Source: Helicobacteraceae bacterium
GTDB lineage: Bacteria; Campylobacterota; Campylobacteria; Campylobacterales; Sulfurimonadaceae
Length of the DNA stretch: 45,549 nt
Direction: 5' to 3'
Assembly: GCA_027066325.1 (NCBI GenBank)
Contig: JAMONY010000019.1
Span: forward strand, 1 to 45,549
Part shown: positions 1 to 39,471 of the stretch, one piece after another
How positions within the stretch are numbered: position 1 is the stretch's first letter
Layout: every line of letters begins with the position of its first letter
Translations under genes and position numbers: made by a program
The notes under the pieces: model-generated
What the model saw: only the letters and a program-made list of their open reading frames with translations
Database searches by the model: none
What the model was told of the DNA's origin: nothing

Positions 1-447
1 ACATAGACCACAAGCACCCATTTTAAAAGGTTCATGAAGGACTTTTTTAAGCGGTTTGAACTTTTGAGGAAGATCTTCTAATCGTAAAAAATCAGCCTTT
101 TTAGCCTTAGCTTTTGTATGCTGCAGACTTTTCTCTTTAATGAGCTCTTCTGATGTCATGGCTAAGGCTAGTTCTGTCTCTTTTTTTATAGTATCAAGCT
201 TCTCTGCTTTGCTAACTGTGATACCTTTGCCAATATTTTTAACAATATCAGAGATATTGATCTCATTTAGCTCTTTATCAGTGATGGTAGCCTCTGTAGG
301 ATAGTATTTGTGTGAACCCTCCATGACACCAGTCAATACACTGCTTCCAATCCGCTCTATTCTGTCTAGTTTATCAGAAAATAAGTACAGTAAAGCAGCT
401 ATGCCAATAGCAATAGTGATTAGTAAAATAGCTATTTTTAATCTCAT
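1..447 (-). CDS. Membrane-anchored multihaem cytochrome c, partial (C-terminus beyond window)
   Basis: This gene is not in the ORF track because it runs off the left edge; I translated it by hand. It starts at ATG 447 with an AG-rich ribosome site (aaggtagagag) and reads open for 149 codons. Residues 1-22 form one membrane anchor (MRLKIAILLITIAIGIAALL), followed by about 120 charged residues. The window ends inside the first haem motif, in HEPFKMGACGLC. That HxPFxxGxCxxC signature also occurs in the next gene and in the lipoprotein at 13178, and marks doubled-CxxCH cytochromes. It lies 12 bp after the triheme gene, so it is probably the third gene of a minus-strand cytochrome operon. The protein should sit on the periplasmic face of the inner membrane. 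The full haem count is unknown. Confidence 0.8.
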   Translation of the reverse strand, partial: MRLKIAILLITIAIGIAALLYLFSDKLDRIERIGSSVLTGVMEGSHKYYPTEATITDKELNEINISDIVKNIGKGITVSKAEKLDTIKKETELALAMTSEELIKEKSLQHTKAKAKKADFLRLEDLPQKFKPLKKVLHEPFKMGACGLC

Positions 448-12710: not shown

Positions 12711-13046
12711 GTGAAAAATCTTAGTATTGTTCTACTCATAATGGTTGCTACTTCACTGCAAGCGGACTATATCAAAGATGGTCAAGCGCTATTTGAAAAG
12801 TATAAGTGCAATATGTGTCATAAGTTAAAAGATGAGCCATTGAGCGTTGCACCATCTCTAGCGTTAATAAGAAAACACTATCTTGGCAATGAGCGTGGTT
12901 TGAGTAGTTTTCTAAAGGGTGAAGCAAAACCAATAGTAGATCCAAAGAAATTTGCTATGATGAAGCAGCAGCTCTATAAGACAGATAGTTTAAGTGATAA
13001 AGAGCTTAGGGCGCTATCGGTTTATATAACTTATGAACACAAATAG
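12711..13046 (+). CDS. Periplasmic monohaem cytochrome c
   Basis: The protein is 111 aa, GTG start after aaggagcaagga. Residues 1-18 are a signal peptide (MKNLSIVLLIMVATSLQA). The haem motif CNMCH (about 33-37) is in GQALFEKYKCNMCHKL, typical of class I cytochrome c. The distal methionine is likely in KKFAMMKQQLY. The closing LSDKELRALSVYITYE is the C-terminal helix of cytochrome c-553-like proteins. It probably shuttles electrons in the periplasm. It lies 131 bp before the 12-motif lipoprotein, which has its own regulatory-looking region. Confidence 0.9.
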   Translation: MKNLSIVLLIMVATSLQADYIKDGQALFEKYKCNMCHKLKDEPLSVAPSLALIRKHYLGNERGLSSFLKGEAKPIVDPKKFAMMKQQLYKTDSLSDKELRALSVYITYEHK

Positions 13047-13090
13047 TAAAAAATAAGTTACGGTTTTAGCAAAGAGTTGAAGTTTTTAGT

Positions 13091-13120
13091 CACATTTTAT
13101 AGATTATTAGGTAAAATGTG
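13091..13120. promoter_or_regulatory. Perfect 9-bp inverted repeat upstream of the multihaem lipoprotein gene
   Basis: CACATTTTA and TAAAATGTG are perfect arms around 12 bases. It could be an operator for the multihaem genes or a weak terminator for the monohaem gene. A plus-strand U-run is absent, so operator is favoured. Confidence 0.4.
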
Positions 13121-13128
13121 TACAATCG

Positions 13129-13154
13129 ATCATCAGAGTGTAGAGCTTGATGAT
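13129..13154. promoter_or_regulatory. 7-bp inverted repeat just before the multihaem lipoprotein ribosome site
   Basis: ATCATCA and TGATGAT flank 12 bases, the same spacer length as the repeat immediately upstream. It ends 23 bases before the ATG at 13178 and would form a hairpin in the leader or bind a dimeric regulator. Confidence 0.35.
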
Positions 13155-13177
13155 ATATTTTATCGAGGAGTAGGTAG

Positions 13178-14506
13178 ATGAAGTTTTCTATTAATGGATT
13201 GATATCCATAATGTTTATAGCCTCTGTAGCAATGTTTAGTGGCTGTATGGGCGGTGCTGGTGAGAGTGTTAGCACAACAACACCTCAAGAGAGTACAGAA
13301 GTAGTTGCCAAAGCAGCTGAGCAGAGTGTTGCTGCTGAGCCAGTTGCTGTGCCAGAGCCAGAGAGTGTTGCGCAGAGCACACCAGCTGAAGAGGAGTCAA
13401 TATTTGAGCCAAATCTAAGACTGGACAAAGAGATGTTTCACCCACCATTTGAGTGGGGCGATTGTACAGTTTGTCATACCAACAGCGATCCTGAAGGTAG
13501 CGGTGATCATGCAACTATCTTAGATACACCAGATCTCTGCTATCAGTGCCATGATAAAGATGCAAAAGAGGGTAAGAAGTTTATACACGGTCCAGTAGCA
13601 GCTGGTGCTTGTACAGCTTGTCACAATCCACATAAATCTCCAAATAAGAGATTGTTAGTTGCATCAAATATCAATCAGTTGTGTACTATGTGTCACCAAG
13701 CTAAGGGGGACTTTTTACATGAGACCGCTAACATCCACCCTCCAGTTAAAGATCAGTGTACAAACTGTCATGATCCACATACTGAGGACTATAAGTTTCA
13801 ACTTCGTGCTGATGGTAAAAAAGATCTATGTGTCATGTGTCATGTTGATAAAAAAGAGCGCATAGAGAACTCCAAATACAAACATGGTGCTATTGACCGA
13901 CCAAATGGTTGTCAAGAGTGTCACGATCCACACGGTACGGGTCAGCCTAGAATGCTTAAAGCTGACTCTGTTATGGATATGTGTCTTAAGTGTCACAACC
14001 AGACTCTAACAACTGATGAAGATGGATATAAACTTCTCAATATCAAAAAACACCTTGATGAGAACCCAGATTGGCATGGACCTATACAGTGGGGTGATTG
14101 TGCAATGTGTCACAATCCACACGGTAGTGATAATCTAAGAATGCTTAAAAAACCATTTCCAAAGAGCTTCTATTCAAACTTTGATGAGAACAACTACATC
14201 TGTTTTGAGTGTCATGATTCACAAAAAATTATGGCTGAGCAGACAGTTGAAGATACAAACTTTAGAAATGGTACAAGTAACATGCATTATGTACATGTCA
14301 ATAAGAAAAAGGGTAGAACTTGTAGAGCTTGTCATGATTTCCATGGCACAAAAGATTACCCTCACCACCTAAGAAAGAAGACACAGTTTGGTAAGATAAG
14401 CTTTCCAATACGCTACATCGAGACGCCAACTGGTGGCTCATGTGCTCCAGCTTGTCATGCTAGAAGATATTACGATAGAGAAAATCCTGTCGTAAATACA
14501 AAGTAG
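13178..14506 (+). CDS. Multihaem cytochrome c lipoprotein (11 CxxCH plus one CX3CH)
   Basis: The protein is 442 aa; ATG after gaggagtaggtag. A lipoprotein signal peptide ends at a lipobox (MFSGC, Cys near 23), followed by a Pro/Ala/Glu-rich linker to about residue 75. The first haem motif is in HPPFEWGDCTVCH; the others are CYQCH, CTACH, CTMCH, CTNCH, CVMCH, CQECH, CLKCH, CAMCH, CFECH and CRACH, with a last atypical CAPACH. Many are followed by NPHG/DPHG, as in doubled-CxxCH cytochromes. The lipid anchor and haem density suggest an outer-membrane electron conduit or a periplasmic electron wire. Six bases separate it from the 8-haem gene. No terminal-oxidoreductase signature was recognised. 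Confidence 0.93.
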   Translation: MKFSINGLISIMFIASVAMFSGCMGGAGESVSTTTPQESTEVVAKAAEQSVAAEPVAVPEPESVAQSTPAEEESIFEPNLRLDKEMFHPPFEWGDCTVCHTNSDPEGSGDHATILDTPDLCYQCHDKDAKEGKKFIHGPVAAGACTACHNPHKSPNKRLLVASNINQLCTMCHQAKGDFLHETANIHPPVKDQCTNCHDPHTEDYKFQLRADGKKDLCVMCHVDKKERIENSKYKHGAIDRPNGCQECHDPHGTGQPRMLKADSVMDMCLKCHNQTLTTDEDGYKLLNIKKHLDENPDWHGPIQWGDCAMCHNPHGSDNLRMLKKPFPKSFYSNFDENNYICFECHDSQKIMAEQTVEDTNFRNGTSNMHYVHVNKKKGRTCRACHDFHGTKDYPHHLRKKTQFGKISFPIRYIETPTGGSCAPACHARRYYDRENPVVNTK

Positions 14507-14512
14507 ATAGAG

Positions 14513-15586
14513 ATGATGAGACGAAACTCTTTGACCCTTGTGCCTCTCTTGCTGTTAGCACTATTTGCTACTTTAAGTGCAAGTGGCACGGACTTTGAGA
14601 TCATCTCACCAAAAGAGAAGGCCTTATATACAGATGCATTTGCCTCTGTATCGGTCAAGCTAGACTACAAAAAAGTTACCAAGTTAGAGGTTTATCATGA
14701 GGGGAATCTAACTAGAGCCTTTAATACGGGCTCATCAAGAGACTTCTACTGCAGTAGTGTAAGGTTGCATCTTGGTAACAACCATATCGTAGTCAAGGCG
14801 TATGATGGCAATGTAAGCCTAGGTGAAAAAAGAGTAGATCTCTACTACTCATCTGAAGTTTTTGAGGATTTTTATGAAGAGCCTTATGGCTATAAAAAAA
14901 GATTTTTTCATGATGAAAAGAGTGAAAGTGTGTGTGTTAAGTGTCATGATATGGATAGAAACTTCAACAAACTAGATAAAAAAACCTTAAAAGCCAAAGG
15001 TGCTGCAACAGCAGATATAGAGATATTAGAAAATCCTCAAGAGTCTAGCTGTTACACATGTCACAATAACCTAGTATCTAGAAAGAATGGACACTCTCCA
15101 TCGGTTAACTTTGCTTGTGTAGCTTGTCATACTGGTGAGGCTGGTGAGAATAATCTTGATGAAGATAGAAGAAGCAGATATATCCAGCCAGATCCCATAG
15201 CTAGTCGCTGCTTTATGTGTCATGAGAGGCTTAAAGAGATTGTGAGTCATAATAACTCTGACCATGGACCTGCTAAGTCTGGGCGTTGCAATAAGTGTCA
15301 CAATCCACACTCATCAGATAATCTATTTTTCTTGCGTAAACCTATATGGGAGCTTTGTACAACTTGCCACTCTGAGAAGATCACTGAGAGACATGTTATA
15401 ACTAGCTTTGTATTTAGGCGCAATAAAAATGGTCACCCAACACGAAAGAGACCAGATCCATCAAGACCTGGTCGTGAGCTTGTCTGTTCAAGCTGTCATA
15501 ATCCACACGGCTCAAAAGGTCCGTTTCTACTAAGAACAGATCAACCAACTCCGTTTAGTGTCTGCAAGAGATGTCATGATAAGTGA
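14513..15586 (+). CDS. Octahaem cytochrome c with N-terminal Ig-like domain
   Basis: The protein is 357 aa (ATG 14513; ATG 14516 also possible). Residues 1-24 are a signal peptide. Residues 25-115 are beta-rich without Cys pairs (TDFEIISPKEKALYTDAFASVSVKLDY...LGNNHIVVKAYDG), resembling a bacterial Ig-like module. The rest carries eight CxxCH motifs: CVKCH, CYTCH, CVACH, CFMCH, CNKCH, CTTCH, CSSCH and CKRCH. The order suggests a soluble periplasmic or secreted protein that partners the upstream lipoprotein. The Ig-like domain could dock to it or to a surface. I do not recognise a specific octahaem reductase; the CXXCK motif of NrfA-type enzymes is absent. Confidence 0.92.
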   Translation: MMRRNSLTLVPLLLLALFATLSASGTDFEIISPKEKALYTDAFASVSVKLDYKKVTKLEVYHEGNLTRAFNTGSSRDFYCSSVRLHLGNNHIVVKAYDGNVSLGEKRVDLYYSSEVFEDFYEEPYGYKKRFFHDEKSESVCVKCHDMDRNFNKLDKKTLKAKGAATADIEILENPQESSCYTCHNNLVSRKNGHSPSVNFACVACHTGEAGENNLDEDRRSRYIQPDPIASRCFMCHERLKEIVSHNNSDHGPAKSGRCNKCHNPHSSDNLFFLRKPIWELCTTCHSEKITERHVITSFVFRRNKNGHPTRKRPDPSRPGRELVCSSCHNPHGSKGPFLLRTDQPTPFSVCKRCHDK

Positions 15587-15606
15587 TCTAGCTAGGTTCT
15601 CTTAAT

Positions 15607-16716
15607 ATGAAGAGAGTTGTGATTGCGTTAACAATCGCACTTCTTTTTGCGCTTACCTTTTTGGTGATGGGGCTTAATAAAGAGCGTCAAATCACTAAAA
15701 AAAATATTGCTTATGACAATCTAAACAAGCTACTTATTAACTTTCTTGATAACCAGAAGCTACAAGCTCTATCTATCGCTTTAGCTCTTAGTAAAGATAG
15801 GGCTATTGCTGATGCTATACTAAGAGGTGATAGGGCGCGCGGATATACTATTCTCAATAGTGCCACTAGCTCTTTTGCAGAGCACCTAAATAGCACCAAC
15901 ATATATGCACAAGTCTATCAAAAAGGTTTAAAAGTTTTTGCTAGTAGTTGGGATTCCAAAATCTTAGATACTCAAGCACCAAGCTTTAGAAGTGATCTTA
16001 AAGAGATAGTAGTTCACAGAAAACCTGTAACAACAGTGGAGTCATCTATACCTTTTGGGATCAAAGCCTCTGTTCCAATCATGCGAGAGTCACATATTGT
16101 AGGCATCCTTGAGATTACTACACTACTTGATCGAGTTGTAGCAATGCTGCGTGAGTATCGTATTGAGACTATTGTTTTAGTAGAACAAGAGACTCTTCAA
16201 GACGATAGTTTCTGTAAGATAAATCCTAAACTAAATGGCTTTCAAGTTGTAAATAGTAGCTACAATAGAGATTTTTTAAACAGATTAAGATCTCTTAGTA
16301 GAGCAAAATTTGATAAGCTTATCCATGCAGAATATCTCAAGAGCGATCAGCACTTTTTTGCTACATTTGGCATTAGGAATCACACTGGTAAGGTGGTTGG
16401 CTATTTTATTACAATCTTATCTGATGAAGATTTTGAGATATTTGCTGGCAAGCAGAAGTCTCTTCTTAAGAGCATATTTACCATGGAGAGCACTACAGAA
16501 GATATATATCATCTGGAGGCATCAAGAAGTGAAAATATATTTACAACTTTAAGTGTTGAGCAGATACTAAGAAAAAATTCCCTGCCTGATGAGAAGGATT
16601 ATATCTACTACAATGAGGCGGTGCACAATACTCTACAGAGCCTCACTAAAGATCAGCTTATAAATCTAGTTTTAAAAAGCTACTATACTAAAGATAAATC
16701 AGGAGAGATTAGATGA
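15607..16716 (+). CDS. Free-standing membrane-anchored dCache-type sensor protein
   Basis: The protein is 369 aa; the ribosome site is poor, and the ATG lies 21 bp after the 8-haem gene. Residues 4-23 anchor it in the membrane. Residues 30-280 look like a dCache_3-type double sensor: helix DNLNKLLINFLDNQKLQALSIALALSKDRAIADAIL, strand IYAQVYQKGLKVFASSW, IPFGIKASVPIMRESHIVGILEITT and a second half FFATFGIRNHTGKVVGYFITIL. Unlike typical relatives there is no HAMP, kinase, cyclase or chemoreceptor domain after it. The gene's stop overlaps the response-regulator ATG (ATGA), so it probably senses an external signal for the downstream two-component pair. Confidence 0.78.
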   Translation: MKRVVIALTIALLFALTFLVMGLNKERQITKKNIAYDNLNKLLINFLDNQKLQALSIALALSKDRAIADAILRGDRARGYTILNSATSSFAEHLNSTNIYAQVYQKGLKVFASSWDSKILDTQAPSFRSDLKEIVVHRKPVTTVESSIPFGIKASVPIMRESHIVGILEITTLLDRVVAMLREYRIETIVLVEQETLQDDSFCKINPKLNGFQVVNSSYNRDFLNRLRSLSRAKFDKLIHAEYLKSDQHFFATFGIRNHTGKVVGYFITILSDEDFEIFAGKQKSLLKSIFTMESTTEDIYHLEASRSENIFTTLSVEQILRKNSLPDEKDYIYYNEAVHNTLQSLTKDQLINLVLKSYYTKDKSGEIR

Positions 16717-17366
16717 AAATACTACTACTTGAAGATGAGTACTCACTAAGAAAATCATTAAAAGAACTTCTAGAAGATGATGGATATATAGTTAGTGACT
16801 TTAGTGAAGGTGAAGCGGCTCAAGACTCAATCTTCTACACTAAGTATGATCTATTGTTACTCGATGTTAATGTGCCTGGTATCGATGGCTTTAAGCTTTT
16901 AGAGTCTGCTAGACGACATAATATCCAGACTCCAGCTATATTTATCACCTCATTAACACAGATAGACTCTTTGGAGCGCGGGTATAATCTTGGGTGTTGT
17001 GACTACATAAAAAAACCTTTTGATATGAAAGAGCTTAAGTTGCGTGTCTCTTCAGCCCTCTCGTCATCATCAACAACCACGGAGCAGATTATAGAGATAA
17101 AGGGTGGCTATAGGTACAACTTAGCATCATTTGCACTCTTTAAAGATGATGAGGAGATCATGTTGTCTAAAACTGAGAGGATGATTTTTGATCTATTTGT
17201 AAAACATCAATCTCAAGTGCTCACAACAGATATGATTACAGAGTATGTGTGGGATGAGTATGTGGATCCTGCCAATGTTAGAGTGCAGATTAATAACTTG
17301 CGTAAAAAACTCACAAAAGATCTTATTAAAAATATACGAGGCGTGGGGTACAAGCTTGAATCTTGA
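16713..17366 (+). CDS. OmpR/PhoB-family response regulator
   Basis: The protein is 217 aa, ATG overlapping the sensor gene, with aggagag upstream. The receiver domain has acid pocket LEDE (6-9), phospho-acceptor Asp51 in LLLLDVNVPGIDG, Thr in IFITSLT and Lys in CDYIKKPF. The C-terminal winged helix (about 130-217) ends in NVRVQINNLRKKLTKDLIKNIRGVGYKLE, the OmpR/PhoB DNA-recognition helix and wing. It should bind promoters when phosphorylated. Its likely partner is the histidine kinase that overlaps its 3' end. The inverted repeats at 13091-13154 are plausible targets. Confidence 0.93.
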   Translation: MKILLLEDEYSLRKSLKELLEDDGYIVSDFSEGEAAQDSIFYTKYDLLLLDVNVPGIDGFKLLESARRHNIQTPAIFITSLTQIDSLERGYNLGCCDYIKKPFDMKELKLRVSSALSSSSTTTEQIIEIKGGYRYNLASFALFKDDEEIMLSKTERMIFDLFVKHQSQVLTTDMITEYVWDEYVDPANVRVQINNLRKKLTKDLIKNIRGVGYKLES

Positions 17367-18534
17367 GATTAATGAGGCTAGGTTTTCTCTTAAATACTCT
17401 ATTATCTACACTACTATTATACTTATTATCCTGCTTGTTCCATTTGCTATATATGATAACTACACCTATAATCTTGAAGAGGTTAAAACAGAGCTAGAGC
17501 TTAAAAAAAAGAGTCTTCTGATCATAAATGAGATAGAGCGATATGATGGTAGGTATCAGAGTTTTTTTAATTTTCCACGATTTAAATCTTTTCAAGCAGG
17601 ACTCTACGATAAAAACTACAACCCAATCTTTACACTTCTAAATCAGCCAACTAGCTCTCTTGAGTTTAGGCAGGGCTATCACAAGCTTGATGAGCAGAGA
17701 TACTATGTGACAAAGTTTTTAGATGATGGTTATTTTGGTGCAACATATCTTATTGTTGAGACAAAGTTCAATATTTACACAATTGTTTTTAACATACTCA
17801 TTGTCTTTTTTTCTATACTCTTTATAACCTTTTTGTTCTCTTTTATGATACTCAAAAACTTCTCAAAACCGTTTAAAGAGATCAATAAAATGTTAGATGA
17901 TTTTATCAAAGACTCTATGCATGAGATTAACACTCCATTGTCGATTATAAACTTAAATGTAGATATATTTACACAAAAACATGGCAAAGATAAAAACCTC
18001 TCACGCATCAAATCTGCTTCAAAGATTCTCTCCTCTTTGTATAATGACATGAACTATCTTATCAAAGAACAAACTATCAATAAGACCAACAAAGAGCAGA
18101 TCAACTTAAGCGAATTTCTGAAAAAATCAGTTGATTACTTTGATGATATTGCTGAACTAAAAGGGATTGTGCTTAAGATCGATATAGAAGATGGAGTGTA
18201 CATAAACTTCTCTGCCGTCAAGCTTCAAAAAATAGTAGATAACAATCTCTCCAATGCCATAAAGTACTCATATGAAGAGCAAGAGGTCATAGTATCTTTA
18301 AAGCGTATCTCCAATAGAGCAGTAGTAAGCTTTAAAGATTACGGCATAGGGATACAAGATCCAGATAAGATCTTCTCAAGATACTACAGAGAAGATCATA
18401 CACAAGGTGGATTTGGTATCGGGCTCAATATTGTGGGTAAGATTGTAAACGAAGAGAAGATTGGTGTCAATATAGTCTCAAAGCTTGGTGAGGGTAGCTG
18501 TTTTGAGTATACTTTTAGAACAAAAACCAGCTAA
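17356..18534 (+). CDS. Membrane sensor histidine kinase
   Basis: The product is about 392 aa from TTG 17356, which follows gcgtgggg and overlaps the regulator gene by 11 bp; the track start at 17245 lies deep inside the regulator and is unlikely. Two transmembrane segments (about 13-32 and 145-170) enclose a 110-residue periplasmic region. The H-box is FIKDSMHEINTPLSIINLN. The ATPase has an N box (IVDNNLSNAIKYS), G1 (KDYGIGIQD) and G2 (GGFGIGLNIVGKIV). It has no clear HAMP domain. The context implies a three-part module: free sensor, regulator, kinase. The signal may be an electron acceptor or redox state; this is inference. Confidence 0.88.
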   Translation: MNLEINEARFSLKYSIIYTTIILIILLVPFAIYDNYTYNLEEVKTELELKKKSLLIINEIERYDGRYQSFFNFPRFKSFQAGLYDKNYNPIFTLLNQPTSSLEFRQGYHKLDEQRYYVTKFLDDGYFGATYLIVETKFNIYTIVFNILIVFFSILFITFLFSFMILKNFSKPFKEINKMLDDFIKDSMHEINTPLSIINLNVDIFTQKHGKDKNLSRIKSASKILSSLYNDMNYLIKEQTINKTNKEQINLSEFLKKSVDYFDDIAELKGIVLKIDIEDGVYINFSAVKLQKIVDNNLSNAIKYSYEEQEVIVSLKRISNRAVVSFKDYGIGIQDPDKIFSRYYREDHTQGGFGIGLNIVGKIVNEEKIGVNIVSKLGEGSCFEYTFRTKTS

Positions 18535-18550: not shown

Positions 18551-21391
18551 ATGAAACAGATAGTTATATTGCTATGTTTTTTTATCTCACAACTTATGGC
18601 ACATGAGTGTAAGTATGAGCTAGATTTACAGATAGATTTGGACTCCAGCACTCTCAAAGGTACAGCACAGATCTACACCTCAAGAGACGACTCTAAGCCG
18701 TTGGTTTTACTACATAGTGATGCTAAAATAACAGCTTTTAAAAACGCAACTTTAAGCATAGACAACGGGATTAGTAAGCTTAGTGATGATGATAAAAATC
18801 TACCTATAACTTTAGATTTTACGCTACCTATAAAGCCTATAAAAGAGACTATATTTCTAACCTCATCTTGGTATCCGCTCATAGAGCACCCATGTAGCTA
18901 TCGAGTATCTATCAAAAAGATACCAGATATGACTTTCATAACAGAGTCAACAGCAACTACACATACTCAAGATAAGATTATATTTGAGTTTAAACATGAA
19001 GTGTCCAGCATACACCTCATAGCCTCATCGCGCTATAAGACTAAAGAGCTAGTACGCAAAGATGGGCTAACTATAAAGAGTGTGTTTTATGGCAATAAAG
19101 ACGCTTTAGCTACACGGTATTTACAAAAGAGTAGTGACTATTTTGATAGATATAAAAAGATTTTTGGCTCACTAGCATTTGATCAATTTAGTATCGTTGA
19201 AGCTCCGTTTCCAGTTGGCTTTGCTATGCCAACTTTTACTCTTATAGGTACACAGATCATCGATAAAGAGTTTATGTTTAAGAGCTCATTGGGTCATGAG
19301 ATAGTGCATCAGTGGCTTGGCAATAGCGTACATGCTATGAGACCTGGCAACTGGAGCGAGGGGCTGAGTACATATTATGCTGATTATCAGTATGCAGCCG
19401 ATAGAGGTGAGGCTAGGGCATACCGTAAAGATATACTGTTAAAATACAACACTTTTGTTGACACTACTAACGATAGGGCACTTATAGAGTTTGTGCAGAA
19501 GAGCGATACAGCATCTGAAGCTATAGGCTATGGTAAAGCGATGTTTTTTTTCTATATGCTAGAGCAGCGCATAGGTAAAAAAGCATTCGATAAAGCAGTC
19601 AAGGAGCTAGTAGGTAATTACACAGATAGAGTTGTTGGCTATAAGATGATGCGCAATCTATTTGAGAAGAGTTCATCGCAAGATCTATATGATTTTTTCA
19701 AAACTTGGGTCTATTTGAGGGGAGCTTTTGCTTTTGATATGACAAACTTAGAGCTTGGGTATGAGATAGATAGTTACTATGTAAGCTTTGATACTATAGG
19801 CAGCTCCATGTTAAAATCACTACCTGTTAAGTTTTGTAAAAAGAGCAGTTGTGTAACAAAGATGATAGATCTTACAAAAACTAGCCACAAAGTCCAACTA
19901 GATGAGGCTCCAGATCGTATCGTTATAGATGATGAGTATAAGATATTTCGTAAGCTTCAACCTCAAGAGATTAGAGCAACTATTGGTACAGTTTTTCAAA
20001 AAGATACTATAGCAGTAGTGGATCCAGCAGATAGGGCAAAATTTGCCAATATCTTAAAAAACTTTAAGCAGATCAGAGATAGTGACAAGATCACCTATAA
20101 AGAGGCATCATCATCTAATCTACTACTGCTAGGAGCTAACAATAACTTCTTAAGACAGCTAGCCATAAAATATGTGCTCGATGAGAGAGGCTCAAAAGTT
20201 GAGGCATTTAAAAATCCACTCAATATCTCTAAAAGTATTGTAGTTATAGACTCAAACTCTACTCTACAAGCGTATAAACTAAAACATCTACATAGATACT
20301 CAACGGTCATCTTTCAAGATCACAAAGTACTACATAAAAGCATAAAACCTTCACAAAATGGTGTTGTATTTAAGATAGATAGTGGCTCAAAAGCTACTCT
20401 ACCTACTACGCTTGAGCTAGATGATATTTTGCCAGATCTATCAAAATCAAAAGTTGTATATATAGGTGAAAATCACACAGAATTTTCAAATCATATCAAT
20501 CAGTTAGAGATTATTAAAGCCATGTATAATACCCATAAGAGACTAGCCATAGGCTTAGAGATGTTTCAACAACCATTTCAGAGCATACTAGATGCATATG
20601 TATCTAGCAAGATAGATGAGAGAGAGATGTTGCAACAAACAGAGTATTTTAAAAGATGGCAGTATGACTATAATCTATATAAACCGATCTTACTTTATGC
20701 TAGAGAGCATAAAATCCCTCTTGTAGCTCTAAATATAGATAGAAATATCACCTCAACGATCTCAAAATCATCACTTGATGGGCTAAATGCAGAGCAAAAA
20801 AGTCTACTACCAGACTCTATAGAATTTGTCTCTAAAGCCTATAGAGACAAACTTTTTAAGATCTATGGCGCACATACAAACTCAAAATTTGGCAGTTTTG
20901 ATGACTTCTTTTATGCGCAGCTGATCTGGGATGAGAGTATGGCATCAAAAGTTGCTTCATATCTGCACGAGAATCCAGATAGTGCTATGGCAGTTCTAGC
21001 AGGCAATGGTCATGTTATGCATGGTTATGGTATACCAGATCGTGCAAAACGACGCGGTATAAAGGAGTATAAGATAGTAGCCCAGTCAATCTCTATCTCA
21101 GACTCTGTAGCCGACTACATACTCTACCCATCACCCATAAAAACTAAAGAGGCAAAAAAGCTTGGAGTTATGCTCGATACAAGTAGCGATAAACTTAAAA
21201 TCATCAAAGTGTTTGCAGACTCTAGTGGTGCTAAAGCTGGCTTGAGACATGGTGATACAATTGTGTCTATTGATGATCGTGCAATATCTAAACTGCATGA
21301 GCTAAAAGAGGTGCTATATTTTACCTCTAAAGAGTTAAATCTTACCATCTTAAGAGATTCAAAAAGTATAGATCTTAATCTATCTTGGTAG
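18551..21391 (+). CDS. Exported M1-peptidase / ChaN / PDZ fusion protein
   Basis: The protein is 946 aa from ATG 18551 (aaagg upstream); the track start at 18485 lies in the kinase gene. Residues 1-17 are a signal peptide (MKQIVILLCFFISQLMA). Residues 20-400 resemble an M1 aminopeptidase: HEIVHQ (249-254), then SEG with Glu270, 16 residues after the second His; the GAMEN exopeptidase motif is replaced by GFAMPT. Residues 634-845 are a ChaN/DUF399-like domain (KVVYIGENHTEFSNH, VLAGNGHVMHGYGIPDR). Residues 865-935 are a PDZ domain (SSGAKAGLRHGDTIVSIDD). ChaN proteins bind haem in Campylobacter. The gene closes the cytochrome block and may process haem or cytochromes. Confidence 0.85.
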   Translation: MKQIVILLCFFISQLMAHECKYELDLQIDLDSSTLKGTAQIYTSRDDSKPLVLLHSDAKITAFKNATLSIDNGISKLSDDDKNLPITLDFTLPIKPIKETIFLTSSWYPLIEHPCSYRVSIKKIPDMTFITESTATTHTQDKIIFEFKHEVSSIHLIASSRYKTKELVRKDGLTIKSVFYGNKDALATRYLQKSSDYFDRYKKIFGSLAFDQFSIVEAPFPVGFAMPTFTLIGTQIIDKEFMFKSSLGHEIVHQWLGNSVHAMRPGNWSEGLSTYYADYQYAADRGEARAYRKDILLKYNTFVDTTNDRALIEFVQKSDTASEAIGYGKAMFFFYMLEQRIGKKAFDKAVKELVGNYTDRVVGYKMMRNLFEKSSSQDLYDFFKTWVYLRGAFAFDMTNLELGYEIDSYYVSFDTIGSSMLKSLPVKFCKKSSCVTKMIDLTKTSHKVQLDEAPDRIVIDDEYKIFRKLQPQEIRATIGTVFQKDTIAVVDPADRAKFANILKNFKQIRDSDKITYKEASSSNLLLLGANNNFLRQLAIKYVLDERGSKVEAFKNPLNISKSIVVIDSNSTLQAYKLKHLHRYSTVIFQDHKVLHKSIKPSQNGVVFKIDSGSKATLPTTLELDDILPDLSKSKVVYIGENHTEFSNHINQLEIIKAMYNTHKRLAIGLEMFQQPFQSILDAYVSSKIDEREMLQQTEYFKRWQYDYNLYKPILLYAREHKIPLVALNIDRNITSTISKSSLDGLNAEQKSLLPDSIEFVSKAYRDKLFKIYGAHTNSKFGSFDDFFYAQLIWDESMASKVASYLHENPDSAMAVLAGNGHVMHGYGIPDRAKRRGIKEYKIVAQSISISDSVADYILYPSPIKTKEAKKLGVMLDTSSDKLKIIKVFADSSGAKAGLRHGDTIVSIDDRAISKLHELKEVLYFTSKELNLTILRDSKSIDLNLSW

Positions 21392-30012: not shown

Positions 30013-30969
30013 TTGCGTAAAGTCGTCTTTGTGACTATCTTGCTTACGATTTTTTACTCATCGCTTAATGCTAAGGGTGCAGCTGCTGGAACACACATAA
30101 GCAACATAGCCTACATACACTACTCTGCTGATGGGCGTGACTATAACAACTCTAGCAATACGGTGATAGATGTTGTAGATCAGCTTATAGATGTATATGT
30201 GAGTTTCTCTCAAAATATGCCAACCTATATAGAGAGTGGTGATAGAGATCAACCATTAGCTTTTAAAGTTACCAATGTAGGAAATGGAGCTGATAAATTT
30301 ACACTATATAGTGACTCCAATAACTCTGTATTGACCAACTCTCCAGCTAGAATATACATAGACACCAACAGCAACAACATCTTAGATCTCTCCTCAGACT
30401 TACAAGTAGTAGATATCAACCTAAGCGCTGATGAGAGTGTGACTGTATTTGTAGTTAACAATATAATTGACGGTGACTTTGCTCGCAGTAGCCGTTACTA
30501 CCATCGCCTAAAAGCGGTCTCATTCAGGGGTGGATCTGGCATAAAAGCTACTCTGCATAACGCCAAAGGCGTAGATGGTGTTAATGCTATTGATGGTCTA
30601 AGAGGTGGAGTAAGTGTGGCAACAGGCATATATGAGATGTTGGCTTTTAAGATCAAAATAGACAAAAGCATAGCACAGATACAAAACTCACTAGGTGAGC
30701 CAAATGCTACAACAGGAGCAGTGATAGTCTACTCTCTTGAGGTCTACATCGATGGTAGTGGTGAGGCTACAGACATACTTATATCAGATCAGATTCCAGA
30801 TGGTATGAAGTATGTTAGTGGCTCTTTGAAGCTAAATAGCAAAACCTTAAGTGATAGCATAGATAGTGATGATGGAGATTTTGATGGCAGAGCTATTCAT
30901 GTCAATATAGCAAAGATTACAGATAGTGACGAGAAGCAGATAGTAACATTTGCAACCGTTATCCAATAA
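30013..30969 (+). CDS. Secreted DUF11-type repeat protein, cluster gene 1
   Basis: The protein is 318 aa; TTG start after aaaaagga. Residues 1-19 are a signal peptide. Then AGTHISNIAYIHYSADGRDYNNSSNTVIDVV (about 25-55) matches the N-terminus of two other cluster genes. The central part is a beta-rich domain (PLAFKVTNVGNGADKFTLYSDSN) like the gap-filling domain before DUF11 units. The last 90 residues are DUF11-like: GAVIVYSLEVYIDGSGEATDILISDQIPDGMKYVSGSLKLNSKTLSD...HVNIAKITDSDEKQIVTFATVIQ. No Cys pairs, no anchor. It is probably exported to the periplasm or surface. Function is unknown. Confidence 0.82.
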   Translation: MRKVVFVTILLTIFYSSLNAKGAAAGTHISNIAYIHYSADGRDYNNSSNTVIDVVDQLIDVYVSFSQNMPTYIESGDRDQPLAFKVTNVGNGADKFTLYSDSNNSVLTNSPARIYIDTNSNNILDLSSDLQVVDINLSADESVTVFVVNNIIDGDFARSSRYYHRLKAVSFRGGSGIKATLHNAKGVDGVNAIDGLRGGVSVATGIYEMLAFKIKIDKSIAQIQNSLGEPNATTGAVIVYSLEVYIDGSGEATDILISDQIPDGMKYVSGSLKLNSKTLSDSIDSDDGDFDGRAIHVNIAKITDSDEKQIVTFATVIQ

Positions 30970-30978
30970 AGGGAGATT

Positions 30979-31440
30979 ATGAAAAAGATAGCATTATTAT
31001 GCATAGTTGTAGCAGGTCTTAGTGCTTCAGGTATAGAGTTTGTATCAAACTCCTATCAGGAGAGAGTTGTTAAGGATGAGAGTGGCAAAGAGAGCATTAA
31101 GCTTCTAAGTGCTACAAAAGTGCTACCAGGAGACACAGTGATATATGTAAATAGCGCAACCAATAAAACAGCAAAAACTATTGACCATGTGCTTGTTACT
31201 AATCCGATCTCTGAGCATATGGAGTATGTAGCATATAGTGCTCAATGTAGTACAGAGTGCACCATACTTTTTTCGATAGATGGTGGTAAGAGTTACGCAC
31301 CTGCTGCAGAACTTTTTGTCAAACAAGAAGATAAGATGGTCTTAGCTAAGCCAAGCCAGTATACAACTGTAAGGTGGAACATAGATACAGTAGCGCCATC
31401 TAGCACTACAGATGTAACTTTTAGAGCAAAATTAAAATAG
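30979..31440 (+). CDS. Small secreted DUF11-like protein, cluster gene 2
   Basis: The protein is 153 aa; ATG after aaagggagatt, 9 bp behind gene 1. Residues 1-17 are a signal peptide. The whole mature part reads as one beta-sandwich like DUF11: LLSATKVLPGDTVIYVNSATNKTAKTIDHVLVTNPISEHMEYVAYSAQC...YTTVRWNIDTVAPSSTTDVTFRAKLK. Two Cys (STECTI region) could form a disulphide. It lacks the conserved N-terminal segment of genes 1, 3 and 4. It could be a minor subunit or adaptor; no function is known. Confidence 0.78.
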   Translation: MKKIALLCIVVAGLSASGIEFVSNSYQERVVKDESGKESIKLLSATKVLPGDTVIYVNSATNKTAKTIDHVLVTNPISEHMEYVAYSAQCSTECTILFSIDGGKSYAPAAELFVKQEDKMVLAKPSQYTTVRWNIDTVAPSSTTDVTFRAKLK

Positions 31441-31574
31441 GTTGCAGCAGGTTAACTTCTAAGAAGAGCATTTGCAGAGTGTTGTTTTTAGGAGTTGATC
31501 CTGATCAGAGACCATGTATGAGCGTAAGCTTTCACAAAAACGGTATAAAAATATCGCAATAGAAGGAGAAGATT

Positions 31575-32600
31575 ATGAAAAAGTATCTCATAGTAGCATC
31601 GATTGTGCTACTAGGGTTTGTAAGTAGTGCAAATGCACTAACAGGAGCTGGTGTAGCTATCAATAATACAGCTACATTAAGCTATAGCGTTGGTGCACTG
31701 CCTCAATCAGATATCAATGCTAGTGATGCAGGATTTGTTGTTGATAGGAAGATAGATATTATCGTAGCAAGCACAGATCCAGCTAAAACAGTCAATACTA
31801 CACCTAGTAGTAGTGAAGTTGTACTCACTTTTCAAGTTGCCAACTCAGGTAATGATGATGAGACATTCAACTTTAGTACAGCTGATATCTCTGGTGGAGA
31901 TGATTTTAATCCAAATAGCTGTCTTATCTATGATAATGCAGCACCACTAACAGCAATCACATCGCTACCGATTACAGCTGAGACAAATGTTACGATTTTA
32001 GTTAAGTGTGATATGCCTCCAGCACTGCCAGCAGTAGGTGGTATTAGTGATGGTGATAATGGAACGATTGTTCTAACAGCAGCTATTGATGCTGCTACTA
32101 GACCAAACCATACAGCAGATGCAGATATAGCAGCAACTATCCAAAATGTCTATGCAGATGGCGCAGGAGCTGATGGAGACACTGCCAACAATGGTGCCCA
32201 TGCAGATCAGGGCACATACCACATAGTTAGTCCTGATATATCTATGGTAAAGAGCTCCATAGTTATAAGTGACCCAGTCAATACAGCAGCAGGTGGTACA
32301 ACTCCACACCGCATACCAGGAGCTACAGTAAGATACTGTTTTACAGTTGATAATAACGGCTCTGCAGATGCAACTAGTGTTAATATAGTAGATGACTTTA
32401 CTGTAGGCAATAAAGACAGCATGACATATGTAAACTCTGGCTTTATAGCACAATCAAATGCTCTAGCTTGTGATTGTGCAGCTGTAGCCGATACAAGTGG
32501 TAGCTTTGCAACACCAGATGTCACTATACCAGTAGGTACTATAACATCTGCTCCAGCAACAGCGCGTATATGTGCCTATATTGAGGCAACTATAGATTAG
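31575..32600 (+). CDS. Secreted DUF11-type protein, cluster gene 3
   Basis: The protein is 341 aa; ATG after agaaggagaag, 134 bp behind gene 2. Residues 1-21 are a signal peptide, then LTGAGVAINNTATLSYSVGALPQSDINASDAGFVVDRKIDIIV matches the shared N-terminal element. A middle domain (VVLTFQVANSGNDDETFNFSTADISGGDDF) is like that of gene 1, followed by a Gly/Ala/Asp-rich segment (VYADGAGADGDTANNGAHADQGTYH, resembling a calcium-loop style). The C-terminal DUF11 domain (about 225-341) starts PDISMVKSSIVISDP and has four Cys near CDCAA. Its stop overlaps the start of the giant gene. Confidence 0.8.
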   Translation: MKKYLIVASIVLLGFVSSANALTGAGVAINNTATLSYSVGALPQSDINASDAGFVVDRKIDIIVASTDPAKTVNTTPSSSEVVLTFQVANSGNDDETFNFSTADISGGDDFNPNSCLIYDNAAPLTAITSLPITAETNVTILVKCDMPPALPAVGGISDGDNGTIVLTAAIDAATRPNHTADADIAATIQNVYADGAGADGDTANNGAHADQGTYHIVSPDISMVKSSIVISDPVNTAAGGTTPHRIPGATVRYCFTVDNNGSADATSVNIVDDFTVGNKDSMTYVNSGFIAQSNALACDCAAVADTSGSFATPDVTIPVGTITSAPATARICAYIEATID

Positions 32601-35600
32601 TGTTTAAGATGAGAGCACTTGTGCAGATCTTATATCTCCTTTTTGCACTATTGCCAGTAGTGCTTAGTGCCGCCATACCAGGTGATGTACTAAGCAATAC
32701 AGCAACAAGTAGCTATAGTGCTGGAGTAAAAAAGATACAAGTAAGCTCCAATGAGACCAATGTCACAGTAGTTCGTTCACCATCAAGCATAGAGTTTTTG
32801 CGCTATTTTAAAACAGGAGCTGATGAGAATTTGTCTCTTAGAAATACAAAATATTTTGATGGTTCACACATGAGCGATATGGATCCACCAAGAGCAGCTG
32901 ATGGAACCTTGCTAGATTTCAACAATATAACACCAGCAGTAGTCAGTTCTACTTTTGGCGGAGATGATCTTATCTTGATTCGCGTGACAGACTTAGATCA
33001 AAATGAGGACAATACTGCCATAGATACTATAGAGTTAAACATAAGCAACGGCACTGATATAGAGCTTATAGAGCTTAGAGAGACATCACCATCTAGTGGT
33101 GTCTTTGTAGGCTACATAAGAACCAATACAGAGAGTGTCACGCAAGCTGATGGGCTTTTGAGTGTAGATAGGGGTGATAGTATTACTGCTATATATCGTG
33201 ATGAGTTAGATGTTGTCACAAGCTCAACTGCTGATGCAACAATTGTCTTCTATTCACATGTATTTTTAGCTAGAGATGGTAGGCGACTAGATGGTATAGA
33301 GGTCTCTTTGGTAGATGCTAGTAGTGGCACTCTGCTAGATAGCACAGTAACTCAAAATAGTGGAGAGTATATATTTTATAACATACCTGCTGGCAGATAT
33401 ATACTTGGAGTCAATGATCCAAAAAATATATATCATGCCCCATCTGTCTATGCTCCATCAGAGACCTCTAAGTATGGTTTTGTTGTTTATGATGATGGCT
33501 CATACTCAAAACCATTTATAAATACTGAACTACCTTCTCAAACTAATGCAGGCGCTAGAGCTTCTGCTGTAATTAAGCAGTTACGCAACATAGATATACC
33601 CATGGATGACCTAATCTACTCTATATCTATCCAAAAAAGTGCCTCTAAGCAGGTTGCTAGCGTAGGTGAGTTCATTAAGTTTACTCTTTTTATTGAAAAT
33701 AGTGGCGATGCAGATCTAGTAGATGTTAATGTCACAGATATGCTTCCAACTGGATTAAAATATGAGACATTAAGCGCTAAGCTTGATACCTTAAAGATCA
33801 AGACAGATCTAAGCCTTGATGGAAAAACCATAAGGTGGCAGATAGGTAATTTGCCAGCATCTGCTAGTAGAACCCTTACATATGTTGCGCAGGTTGGCAC
33901 AGGCATAAAGGGCAATAAGATTACAAACCAAGCCATCGCAAGCTCAAAGCGTATAGAGAGCTCAAATATTGCAACAGCAACAGTTAAGATTGAAGAGGAG
34001 TTGTGGCGCAATAGAGCATTTATAGTTGGGCAGATCATAAATCAAGATCAAAATAGTACTGATGGCATAGAGGGCGTTAGGGTCTATCTTGAAGATGGAA
34101 CCTACACCAATACCGATAGAGACGGCAAATACCACTTTGAAGCTCTTAGCATAGGCACACATGTGGTTCAAGTAGATCAAGATAGCTTAAGAGATGGTGT
34201 GGAGCTAGTAGAGTGCACTCAAAACCCAAGGGCTGCATTAAGAACATTTTCTAGATTTGTTGATCTGCGACAAGGAGCTATAAAAAGGGTAGACTTCTGT
34301 CTTAAAGGATCTATCAAAATAGATAGAGTTGTGCCAGATTTAAATGAGACTAAAGATAGCAACACTATGCCCGAATATAGCCCGTCGACTATACGCAATC
34401 TTAAAGATCCTCCATCGATACTCTGGCCTCCAAAGAGGTATGTGCCCAGTATACCAACAACTAAAATAGCCGTTTTACACTCTATCAAAGACTCAGCTCA
34501 GTTATGGCTAAATTCAGAACAAGTGAGTCTGTTAAATTATGACTCTCAAGTTGTAGATAAAAGAAGTGGTAGAGTGCTAACTATCTATAAAGGTGTAGAT
34601 CTGTTGGCTGGTAAAAATAGCCTTGAAGTTCTCATTAAAGATCAAAATGGCAAAGTGCTTAAGAGAGCTATAAGATCTATCCATGTATCTGGTGCTCCTG
34701 TGAAGTTGCGCTATCTACCTGAACTCTCAACGCTTGTTGCAGATGGTAAAAACTCACCAATCATAGCTGTTCAGCTTTTTGATAAAGATAACTACCCAGT
34801 TCGTACAACACTAAAAGGCTCCTATAGCATTGAAGAGCCATACATTTCGCAAGACTCTATAGATAAGTTATCATCTGACCCCTTAGGACTTAGAGGAAGT
34901 GAAGATAGGTATACAGTTGGAGCCCATGGTGTTGCCTATATTAGACTACAGCCTACAACAAGAGCAGGTGAAGCAACCTTACACTTTGATCTTGATGGGC
35001 GCACACAGAGCATAAGAGCTTGGTTGTCACCAAAAGCGCGCGAGTGGATTGTGGTAGGTTTTGGTGAGGGGAGCGTTGGCTATACAACTCTAACACAAAA
35101 ACAAGAAGATGGCTCATCAACTAGCCAAAAAGAGATCACGCGAGATGGTAGAGTTGCCTTTTTTGCCAAAGGCAGCATTAGGGGTGAGTGGCTATTGAGT
35201 ATGGCTTATGATAGTGGCAAAGAGAAGGGTGATAAAGAGCTTTTCTCTAAGATAGATCCAAATAGCTACTACACGCTCTATAATGATGCTTCAAGAGAGA
35301 ACTATGAGGCATCAAGCACAAAAAAGATATACCTTAAGATAGAAAAAGATCGCTTCTATGCACTTTTTGGTGACTACAGTACAGCACTATCGTATACGGA
35401 GCTATCAAGATACTCTAGGAGTTTTACAGGTCTTAAGAGTGAATATAGTGGCGACAACTTTCAGACAAATCTATTTGTTGCCAATACAGATCAGCTCTTT
35501 GTTAAAGATGAGATAAGAGGTGATGGCACATCTGGAGACTACAAGCTAAGCAAAGATAACATAGTGATCAACTCTGAAAAAGTGAGCATTGAGGTTCGCG

Positions 35601-37423: not shown

Positions 37424-37425
37424 TG

Positions 37426-39471
37426 ATGAGAGCTATTTTACTACTAGCCACACTCTTGATGATACAGACACAACTGTTTGCTTGGAAGATGGAGGCAGAT
37501 AAGATCACAGTCTTAAATACAACTGGTAACACTACCACATCGATCACCTTTAGGCAGACCTATGATACAACCCCGCTCATCTTTCTGCTAGCGACAGACC
37601 GTGGTAGTGATCCTGCAACTTTAAGGGTAAAAAATGTCACTACAACGGGTTTTGATGTCTATATAGTTGAGCCTGATGGCAATGATGGTCCACATGCTAG
37701 AATGACATCTGTACCATATATAGCCATAGAGCCAGGAGTACACACTCTGCCAGATGGCACTCAGATAGTAGCTCAGAGTATCTCAACACAAGCTTATAGG
37801 GCTAAACTCTTAGCAGGCAGCAGTTGGGATACGGTCTCTTTAAGTGGATTTAGTACAACTCCAGCCATATTGGCTCAGATACAGACAGCCAATAGTGAAA
37901 GAGTAGATACTCCAGTCCCAAGCGCAGTATCACGACCGTGGATGAGCATCGCCCTTAGAGGTGTCTCGTCTACAGGCTTTCAGATAGCTCTGGAACGCTC
38001 AGAGACAACTCTAGGCACTCTAAATAGTAACGAAGAGATCGCATATTTGGCTATAGATAGTGCTCTTAGTGGCTCAAATCACTACTTTGGCTCATCTACT
38101 GCTGATAGGATCTGGTATGAGAGTATTCGCTCAACCGATACCATAGCTGGTTGGGATAACTCCGCTGCAGGTTACAACATAGCATTCTCAACAGCCTATC
38201 CAGACCCCATAGCAGTTGCCACTAAAAACAGTAGAGATGGTGGAGATGGCGGATGGTTGAGGCGACGATCTATATCTTCTAGTAGTATCTCTTTGGTAGT
38301 AGATGAGGATTTAGCAAATGATACTGAACGCGCACACACAACAGAGAGAGCTGGTGTAGTTATCTTCTCAGAGCCATTTGATGTTGAGTTTATATATAAC
38401 ACTACAGCTGCTATGAGCATCAATGAACTTCTCTACAATGAGGTGACAACTGGTGTAAATAATGATGAGTTTATAGAGCTATATGTGACATCATCTGGTG
38501 ATCTAAATGGCTTTGTACTCACAGATCAAGATACTAACTTTTATAGATTTTCATCTTTGAGTGTTAATGTAGGAGATTATGTGATAGTGCACCTTGGAAC
38601 TGGTGTTGATAGCAGTGCAGGCTCTATACACCACCTCTACAAAAATAGTACAACTATACTTAATAACAATAATGATGATGTGGTGTTATTGAAACCAGCT
38701 CAAGATGTGAGTATCTTGGCAGATAACACAGCATTTAATGCAGAGCCTATGGACTATGTAGCGTATGGCAGAAATAGTGTCGGCTCAAATGTAGATGCTA
38801 TACCAGTTAGTATGAATTTGATAACACTAAGTTACTCATACACTTTTGGCACAGAGTTAACTGGAGCGGTTAATGGTGAGTCTATCTCACTCACTCCAAA
38901 TGCAATAGATAGCGATCAAGCACGCTGTTGGGAGCGCACTACAAGTGGCAATGCAGGCAATAACGGATGTGCTGGATACATACCTACAAGAGCTACAGAT
39001 GCTACATATCTACACTCACAAACACAGAGCAATACTGCTATGCCAAATATCATACTAAGTAAATCTGCGCTACCAACATACGACCCTGTTAATGCAACTA
39101 TCAATCCAAAGGCGATTCCAGGCTCTATCATAGAGTATACTATAGCTGCTAGAAATGAGGGAGCAGGAGCTGCAAATAACATATCTATTGCAGATAAAAT
39201 CCCTACAGATCTAAAGTTGTGTGTAACAGCAATTGGGCAGTGCCAAGTAGCACAGTATACAGATGGTAGCCCAAATAGCACTCTTAGCTTAGGAGTTATA
39301 GAGTACTCTGATGATAACGGTACTACATTTGCCTATACTCCCTCACCAGATATAGATGGATTTGATATCAGCGTAACAGATATTCGCATCAATCTAACAG
39401 GTACATTCGTCGCTAGTATTGGAGCACCTTATCCAAACTTTGAGATCAAACTCTACACTGGTATAAGATAG
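37426..39471 (+). CDS. Secreted H-type-lectin-like / lamin-tail / DUF11 protein, cluster gene 5
   Basis: The protein is 681 aa from ATG 37426, six bases after GGAGG; the track's GTG 37420 and ATG 37423 lie too close. A signal peptide (1-21) ends at FAWKM. Residues about 25-300 hold two or three repeats like ITFRQTYDTTPLIFLLATDRG...VKNVTTTGFDVYIVEPDG, resembling H-type lectin sandwiches. A lamin-tail domain follows (about 322-450): INELLYNEVTTGVNNDEFIELYVTSSGDLNGFVLTDQDTNFYRF. A C-terminal DUF11 unit begins IILSKSALPTYDPVNATINPKAIPGSIIEYTIAARNEG. It may bind glycan or be a tip protein; this is inference. Confidence 0.78.
   Translation: MRAILLLATLLMIQTQLFAWKMEADKITVLNTTGNTTTSITFRQTYDTTPLIFLLATDRGSDPATLRVKNVTTTGFDVYIVEPDGNDGPHARMTSVPYIAIEPGVHTLPDGTQIVAQSISTQAYRAKLLAGSSWDTVSLSGFSTTPAILAQIQTANSERVDTPVPSAVSRPWMSIALRGVSSTGFQIALERSETTLGTLNSNEEIAYLAIDSALSGSNHYFGSSTADRIWYESIRSTDTIAGWDNSAAGYNIAFSTAYPDPIAVATKNSRDGGDGGWLRRRSISSSSISLVVDEDLANDTERAHTTERAGVVIFSEPFDVEFIYNTTAAMSINELLYNEVTTGVNNDEFIELYVTSSGDLNGFVLTDQDTNFYRFSSLSVNVGDYVIVHLGTGVDSSAGSIHHLYKNSTTILNNNNDDVVLLKPAQDVSILADNTAFNAEPMDYVAYGRNSVGSNVDAIPVSMNLITLSYSYTFGTELTGAVNGESISLTPNAIDSDQARCWERTTSGNAGNNGCAGYIPTRATDATYLHSQTQSNTAMPNIILSKSALPTYDPVNATINPKAIPGSIIEYTIAARNEGAGAANNISIADKIPTDLKLCVTAIGQCQVAQYTDGSPNSTLSLGVIEYSDDNGTTFAYTPSPDIDGFDISVTDIRINLTGTFVASIGAPYPNFEIKLYTGIR

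Follow-up and report, generated by a model that had tools for sequence, protein, structure and literature searches.

A multihaem cytochrome locus with its own signalling genes and a putative electron-export pathway in a Helicobacteraceae bacterium

The window, a DNA stretch of 45,549 nt, is contig JAMONY010000019.1 (C19) of the Helicobacteraceae bacterium assembly GCA_027066325.1, from a group of sulfur oxidisers, and the locus examined here occupies positions 12711–18534. It holds six open reading frames on the forward strand, three for cytochromes followed by those for a sensor, a regulator and a kinase; all six lie where a preliminary description of this DNA had placed them, and Pfam agrees with their assignments. 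The first gene (12711–13046, GTG start) encodes a monohaem cytochrome c with a signal peptide and one CNMCH motif (Pfam Cytochrom_C), and is followed by a 12-haem cytochrome gene (13178–14506; Pfam Paired_CXXCH_1), an order kept in most related loci. The 12-haem protein is a putative lipoprotein with 11 CXXCH motifs and one CAPACH (CX3CH), the Cys and His of which are invariant in an alignment of 19 orthologues. Its lipobox-like Cys is present in signalling-linked orthologues with a complete N-terminus and absent in Sulfurimonas orthologues, and AlphaFold returned no usable model of the protein (pLDDT 37). The third gene (14513–15586), kept beside the 12-haem gene, encodes an 8-haem cytochrome whose N-terminal ~115 residues carry no haem motifs. 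Together the three proteins contain 20 CXXCH motifs and the one conserved CX3CH, which matches the earlier count of at least 21 haems.

The sensor gene (15607–16716, forward strand) begins 20 bp after the 8-haem gene. Its product has a dCache_3 domain (Pfam E 3.6e-9) and, by hydropathy, one N-terminal membrane segment, and the Pfam search found no kinase domain in it. The gene overlaps by 4 bp (ATGA) that of an OmpR-type response regulator (16713–17366, forward; Pfam Response_reg and Trans_reg_C), the end of which is in turn overlapped by 11 bp by the TTG start of a histidine kinase gene (17356–18534, forward; two membrane segments, Pfam HisKA and HATPase_c). The monohaem and 12-haem genes, which are 131 bp apart, are not tightly coupled. 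With a receiver and winged-helix regulator and a HisKA/HATPase kinase, the pair is a two-component system of the OmpR/PhoB type. The segment VDPANVRVQINNLRKKL is the likely recognition helix of the regulator, and is conserved in sox-linked homologues.

The cytochrome and sensor–regulator–kinase genes are kept together in six other Campylobacterota genomes, giving seven with the linkage in all (the other loci that pair them include L126–L129, L131 and L132), and hence the gene set is not a chance arrangement. A same-family sample had made the signalling module look private to this genome, a view overturned by the scan of further genomes. In two of the six other genomes, the cluster continues into genes for OmcE-like tetrahaem proteins, NHL propellers, a PpiC/SurA isomerase and a large beta-barrel, and such OmcE-like, NHL, PPIase and barrel genes are contiguous with the signalling and cytochrome genes in L187/L188 and L190. 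In the genome studied here this second half, with its OmcE-like and barrel genes, lies apart from the window on contig C80. The tetrahaem proteins of C80 match, along their whole length, PDB chains 7tfs_A, which we take to be the OmcE filament, and 9yuq_N. Against the solved OmcE filament subunit, E-values are 3e-21 and 1.2e-23 with single sequences and 9.9e-37 with a profile. The proteins have four CXXCH motifs and invariant H28, H54, H163 and H221, candidate distal ligands for bis-His coordination. The large outer-membrane beta-barrel is clustered with the cytochromes in relatives. An orthologue of it is modelled by AlphaFold with about 28 strands (pLDDT 89), and the best PDB match of this model is MtrB of the Mtr complex (6r2q_B), at a TM-score of only 0.48 and alongside matches to other large barrels. 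The remark that no porin-barrel partner is seen therefore applies to this contig only: the cluster of relatives runs directly into a barrel gene, and the 'missing' barrel exists here on C80.

The left end of the window adds an inner-membrane branch, encoded on the reverse strand. It comprises a NapC/NrfH-family tetrahaem protein, a putative quinol dehydrogenase (989–1699; Pfam Cytochrom_NNT, E 4.5e-28), with orthologous operons in L064, L065, L068 and L229–L231; a trihaem cytochrome that is probably membrane-anchored (460–1080), whose true start probably lies inside the ORF and whose orthologues come after the NrfH-like gene; and another 12-haem protein, this one membrane-anchored, of which the window holds the start (1–447). 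The first of these scores 70.6 bits against NrfH of the NrfHA nitrite reductase (TIGR03153), below the curated cut-off of 134.2. The second 12-haem gene runs on into contig C72 (L051) and is followed there by another 8-haem gene. Window positions 1–127 are identical to the end of C72, this 127-bp overlap is found nowhere else in the genome and the reading frame runs on across it, so that the join of the two contigs completes the NrfH-like/12-haem/8-haem branch.

The closest parallel to the signalling genes is a sensor–regulator–kinase triple that stands beside soxXYZAB in relatives from the same family, with the same gene order, the same protein families and the same box (TTTACA-N5-TTTACA) before its target operon. 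The two differ in that the target here is a cytochrome pathway and the genome lacks SoxB. The regulators and kinases of cytochrome-linked loci also form one clade apart from the sox-linked ones (support 100/100), which is unaffected by L109 having been marked as sox-linked in that tree although its triple adjoins no sox genes. SoxB is absent from all seven genomes with cytochrome-linked signalling genes, this one included, and no sox genes are present in the window.

Taken together, the locus probably encodes, along with a dedicated signalling module, the outer-membrane and periplasmic half of an electron-export pathway that ends in OmcE-type wires. Electrons would pass from quinol to the NrfH-like tetrahaem protein, from there to the trihaem protein and the membrane-anchored 12-haem/8-haem relay encoded at the window's left end and on C72, and on to the 12-haem lipoprotein, 8-haem and monohaem proteins of the locus. 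These would deliver them to the large barrel in the outer membrane and an accompanying cytochrome with at least nine haems, and finally to the OmcE-like proteins of C80, which may polymerise into extracellular wires; the NHL propellers and the PpiC/SurA isomerase could aid assembly. The conserved neighbourhood of OmcE-like and large-barrel genes, together with an operator-like box shared among these genes, lends good support to the original suggestion of a regulated extracellular electron pathway. Multihaem conduits can run in both directions, and the same machinery could instead draw electrons from an external source (elemental sulfur, sulfide minerals, another cell or an electrode) into the quinone pool. 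We regard this as rather unlikely, although the signalling family adjoins sulfur-oxidation genes in relatives and genomes without SoxB might have a different way in for sulfur-derived electrons. The entry protein is NapC/NrfH-like, a family in which quinol oxidation is normal, and this argues for export. So does OmcE of Geobacter, which is used in extracellular reduction (PMC12307469).

Control of the export pathway is predicted to act through a direct repeat, TTTACA-N5-TTTACA, which has an 11-bp period at predicted regulator targets. Exact copies of this box lie upstream of OmcE-like genes in every one of the seven genomes; three of the seven have one before the conduit operon, and three have one before the NrfH-like branch. 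Although the box was initially spotted on some of the loci later counted, signalling-linked loci hold 14 exact copies in 192 kb, against none for permuted hexamers and with a spacer of strictly 5 bp, and 19 of the 26 exact copies in the seven whole genomes precede genes of the electron pathway. In this genome the box stands only before the two OmcE-like genes of C80 (C80 9451–9435 and 8443–8427, L052); it is absent before the monohaem and NrfH-like genes, where the best candidates have four mismatches, and hence it makes no case for control of the window operon. Regulator binding had been proposed at 13091–13154, but this is not the likely site: the stretch is without the conserved box, and the inverted repeat within it, CACATTTTA-N12-TAAAATGTG (13091–13120), was set aside, as it was not seen upstream of orthologues. 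The sensor and regulator apparently activate the second half of the pathway, encoded elsewhere in the genome, through this box, which in relatives serves thiosulfate-oxidation genes. The sensor and kinase would perceive a periplasmic cue, and the phosphorylated regulator, bound to the box in place of a -35 box, would start transcription, in this genome by acting in trans on the OmcE-like gene pair of C80. It is very unlikely that the signalling genes lie next to the cytochromes without being related to them and that the repeat is a general promoter element, uninformative on the regulator. The box-less window operon would suit such a reading, as would L143, where the box precedes an OmcE-like gene in a region without signalling genes; against it, comparable loci without signalling genes yield a single exact copy over 326 kb, box and recognition helix are common to two regulator clades that differ in their targets, and the linkage is kept in seven genomes.

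We also consider it very unlikely that the 8-haem protein is an octahaem enzyme converting nitrite, hydroxylamine, sulfite or tetrathionate with the 12-haem protein as its electron donor, since the eight haems, a weak match (18 bits against a cut-off of 375) of the 12-haem protein to the family of octahaem tetrathionate reductases and its short match to an octahaem nitrite reductase are outweighed by 8-haem motifs that are without exception ordinary CXXCH, neither CXXCK nor any other atypical catalytic form being present, a PDB search without a match to such enzymes, and the barrel and OmcE-like genes constantly alongside. The proposed export machinery is closer to the MtrCAB, DmsEF, PioAB and MtoAB conduits, which likewise combine multihaem proteins with a large outer-membrane barrel (MtrB being the best fold match), but it differs from them in its 12 haems, its extra 8-haem partner, its NHL and PPIase genes and its barrel, the genome having no match to the MtrB/PioB family (PF11854) at E up to 1. 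The 12-haem protein scores 122.4 bits against the MtrA/DmsE decahaem model (TIGR03508), below the curated cut-off of 192.2; against the OmcA/MtrC surface decahaem model (TIGR03507) the 8-haem protein reaches 20.4 bits (cut-off 209.3), and the 12-haem protein is absent among the matches listed. The wire candidates resemble the OmcE filament of Geobacter sulfurreducens in full-length alignment, in their four haem motifs and in the candidates for the distal His, but occur in another phylum, with dedicated signalling genes and with several OmcE-like subunits and a large cytochrome that begins like OmcE in one cluster.

At vents and in redoxclines, Campylobacterota are among the major chemolithoautotrophs. 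One Sulfurimonas isolate can use solid MnO2 to oxidise sulfide (PMC9122950), yet a published search of a Sulfurimonas MAG recovered partial porin–cytochrome sets only (PMC11748539); the barrel found here to adjoin Sulfurimonas cytochromes suits the missing role. Our literature search found nothing relevant on the cluster or on OmcE-type genes in Campylobacterota, which is weak evidence, most subscription papers lying outside that search. The idea that the system senses its own acceptor is unsupported: in relatives, the box stands before soxX next to the homologous gene triple at 13 loci (11 exact, two with one mismatch), and a sulfur donor or redox cue is thus at least as likely. With a homologous regulator and box before soxXYZAB in relatives, the pathway looks to be under a sulfur-oxidation-type regulator in lineages that lack sox, one regulator family and DNA box apparently serving two different respiratory targets. 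We tentatively suggest, as a possibility, that in sox-less Campylobacterota a thiosulfate-oxidation-type regulator and its operator box took over the control of a complete quinone-to-nanowire pathway (inner-membrane branch, outer-membrane conduit and OmcE-like wires), in which case a sulfur-compound cue would connect the cell electrically, by way of a conduit distinct in type from Mtr, to a mineral or partner outside it. The analysis offers candidates for the barrel, the wire subunits and the inner-membrane entry branch, together with a concrete operator sequence, and with these it becomes directly testable how Campylobacterota regulate extracellular electron transfer.

The genome that carries contig C19, all of which is in the window, spans 1.69 Mb in 82 contigs and is 99.87% complete. 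The six genes of the preliminary description are present as described: a monohaem (12711-13046), a 12-haem (13178-14506) and an 8-haem cytochrome (14513-15586) are followed by a dCache sensor (15607-16716), an OmpR-type regulator (16713-17366) and a histidine kinase (17356-18534). In the 12-haem protein, the twelfth haem motif reads CAPACH (CX3CH), with Cys and His that are invariant across 19 orthologues. A gene 17 bp 3' of the kinase gene (18552-21391) encodes a rare-looking fusion of an M1-peptidase-like region, a ChaN-type haem-binding (Cofac_haem_bdg) domain and a PDZ domain, and does not adjoin the kinase in related loci. At 30013-39471, translations inspected by eye show a series of large secreted proteins in which surface-protein-like domains recur.

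At the left end of the window, the minus strand encodes a tetrahaem protein of the NapC/NrfH family, a trihaem protein and the first part of a second 12-haem protein. Positions 1-127 are identical to the end of contig C72 and are found nowhere else in the genome, and hence C19 and C72 adjoin; C72 holds the remainder of the second 12-haem gene and a second 8-haem gene. This inner-membrane branch is adjacent to the outer-membrane cluster in a related locus, L135. In this genome, contig C80 (1-9363, minus strand) carries two tetrahaem genes, an NHL-repeat gene, a third tetrahaem gene, a peptidyl-prolyl isomerase (PPIase), a barrel, a further NHL gene and a cytochrome with at least nine haems. The tetrahaem proteins match over their full length the solved chains 7tfs_A, which we take to be the OmcE filament of Geobacter, and 9yuq_N, and the large cytochrome has an OmcE-like domain at its start. 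The earlier remark that a porin-barrel partner is not seen therefore holds for the window but not for the genome. The structure model of the barrel orthologue in L149 (pLDDT 89) has ~28 strands, and in the PDB it matches chain B of the Mtr porin-cytochrome complex best, at a modest TM-score (0.48). Contig C62 encodes a solitary 5-haem protein with an OmcE-family-like start (L061:9062-9778).

Relatives of the 12-haem protein occur in 25 of 200 same-family genomes; the seven further members of its own genus that were sampled have none. The 47 related loci from a scan of named genomes include distant relatives in Nitrospirae, Zixibacteria, Planctomycetota and Geobacteraceae. The neighbourhood survey suggested in the preliminary description was run and revealed two architectures in Campylobacterota, one of which keeps the signalling genes with the cytochromes. 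The Sulfurimonas-type locus runs directly from the mono-, 12- and 8-haem genes through a tetrahaem, an NHL-repeat, a PpiC/SurA isomerase, a ~580-aa barrel and a second NHL gene to a large multihaem gene, and signalling genes are absent from it. In the second architecture, sensor, regulator and kinase stand together with the cytochromes, as in the window, L126 (Hydrogenimonas sp.) and L127-L129, L131 and L132 (Campylobacterales MAGs). The entire set lies on a single contig in L132 (extended as L187 and L188), in the order 12-haem, 8-haem, two Sel1-repeat-looking genes, monohaem, sensor, regulator, kinase, tetrahaem, NHL, PPIase, barrel, NHL, multihaem; in L190 the order is regulator, kinase, two tetrahaem genes, NHL, PPIase and barrel. 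Large membrane proteins that by appearance resemble CcsBA/ResB-type cytochrome c assembly factors adjoin the nanowire-type cluster at L189:934-4161, L191:6916-9000 and L068:1965-5180.

Homologues of the sensor and the kinase occur in 142/200 and 143/200 family genomes, respectively. Genes reading as soxXYZAB, named from size, order and motifs rather than by family search, lie beside them in 13 of 17 loci inspected. A tree built on regulator and kinase unites the cytochrome-linked copies in a single clade (100/100); its sister is a copy that lies next to a gene for a different outer-membrane-type protein (L107, L115). A SoxB query (the SoxB-like protein of L108) matched in sox-linked relatives and was not found in this genome or six other cytochrome-linked genomes, of which only this genome has a completeness figure. 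In the passages retrieved from a review of how Campylobacterota regulate respiration, sox genes are cited once, as enzymes, and no sox regulator is named (PMC6682613). Long gaps between the 8-haem and sensor genes (L126:8162-8417, L127:3005-3257, L128:12197-12394) hold a conserved AATTCGTTGTATAATAAA stretch 5' of the sensor gene, perhaps a separate promoter for the signalling genes.

The cytochrome-linked and sox-linked groups share an operator-like box, TTTACA-N5-TTTACA followed by a -10-like sequence, with the consensus TTTACActatTTTTACA in the cytochrome group and TTTACAntaaTTTTACA in the sox group, and the likely recognition helix of the regulators is conserved. The cytochrome-linked loci (192 kb) hold 14 exact boxes and the sox-linked loci (221 kb) hold 11 (permuted hexamers, mean 0 in each), whereas cytochrome loci that lack the signalling genes (326 kb) hold 1 (mean 0.25) and the surroundings of L107/L115-type copies (54 kb) none (mean 0); spacings other than 5 bp have almost no copies in the loci counted. 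The box was first spotted on some loci later counted; a more independent check comes from the sox loci, the NrfH-like operons and the whole-genome tallies. In sox-linked loci it lies just upstream of soxX, exact in 11/13 and with one mismatch in 2/13. Across the seven cytochrome-linked genomes it precedes OmcE-like genes in 7/7, the monohaem/12-haem operon in 3/7 and an NrfH-like operon in 3/7; genome-wide, 19 of 26 exact copies are 5' of such pathway genes (one, in L127, in a kinase-to-tetrahaem gap at a contig end), and the reversed pattern gives 8 matches. Intergenic exact boxes in this genome stand only at two OmcE-like genes of C80, the other two copies being in coding sequence, and none lies upstream of the window's monohaem operon or NrfH-like gene.

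Several further boxes were seen. A one-mismatch form (TTTACAC-N4-TTTTCA) lies ~58 bp 5' of the ~460-aa outer-membrane-type protein gene beside the sister triple (L107:3678, L115:5174), a possible third type of target. A Sulfurimonas locus with no adjacent signalling genes (L143:3004) has an exact box 155 bp 5' of an OmcE-like gene; this possibly reflects cross-regulation by a sox-linked copy, or possibly chance. Boxes at L233:4578 and L236:3754 adjoin genes of one family (~335 aa, 'YGSNADRYLYLA'), being 5' of the gene in L233, and in L236 3' of it and 5' of a 5-haem OmcE-like gene; the latter gene, whose box is exact, resembles the C62 gene, which has no exact box upstream.

Our literature search found no description of the cluster or of OmcE-type genes in Campylobacterota. 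Porin-cytochrome sets in a Sulfurimonas MAG were incomplete, and an undetected porin was suspected (PMC11748539); manganese-dependent sulfide oxidation is described in Ca. Sulfurimonas marisnigri (PMC9122950). In our reading, the locus is an electron conduit with OmcE-type wires at its end, controlled by a regulator whose family is otherwise found with sulfur-oxidation genes. With an entry protein of the NapC/NrfH type, electrons are more likely to be exported from quinol than taken up, an argument from family knowledge. It had been proposed that the pathway senses its own acceptor; given the sox association, a reduced sulfur compound or the redox state is at least as likely a cue as the terminal acceptor.
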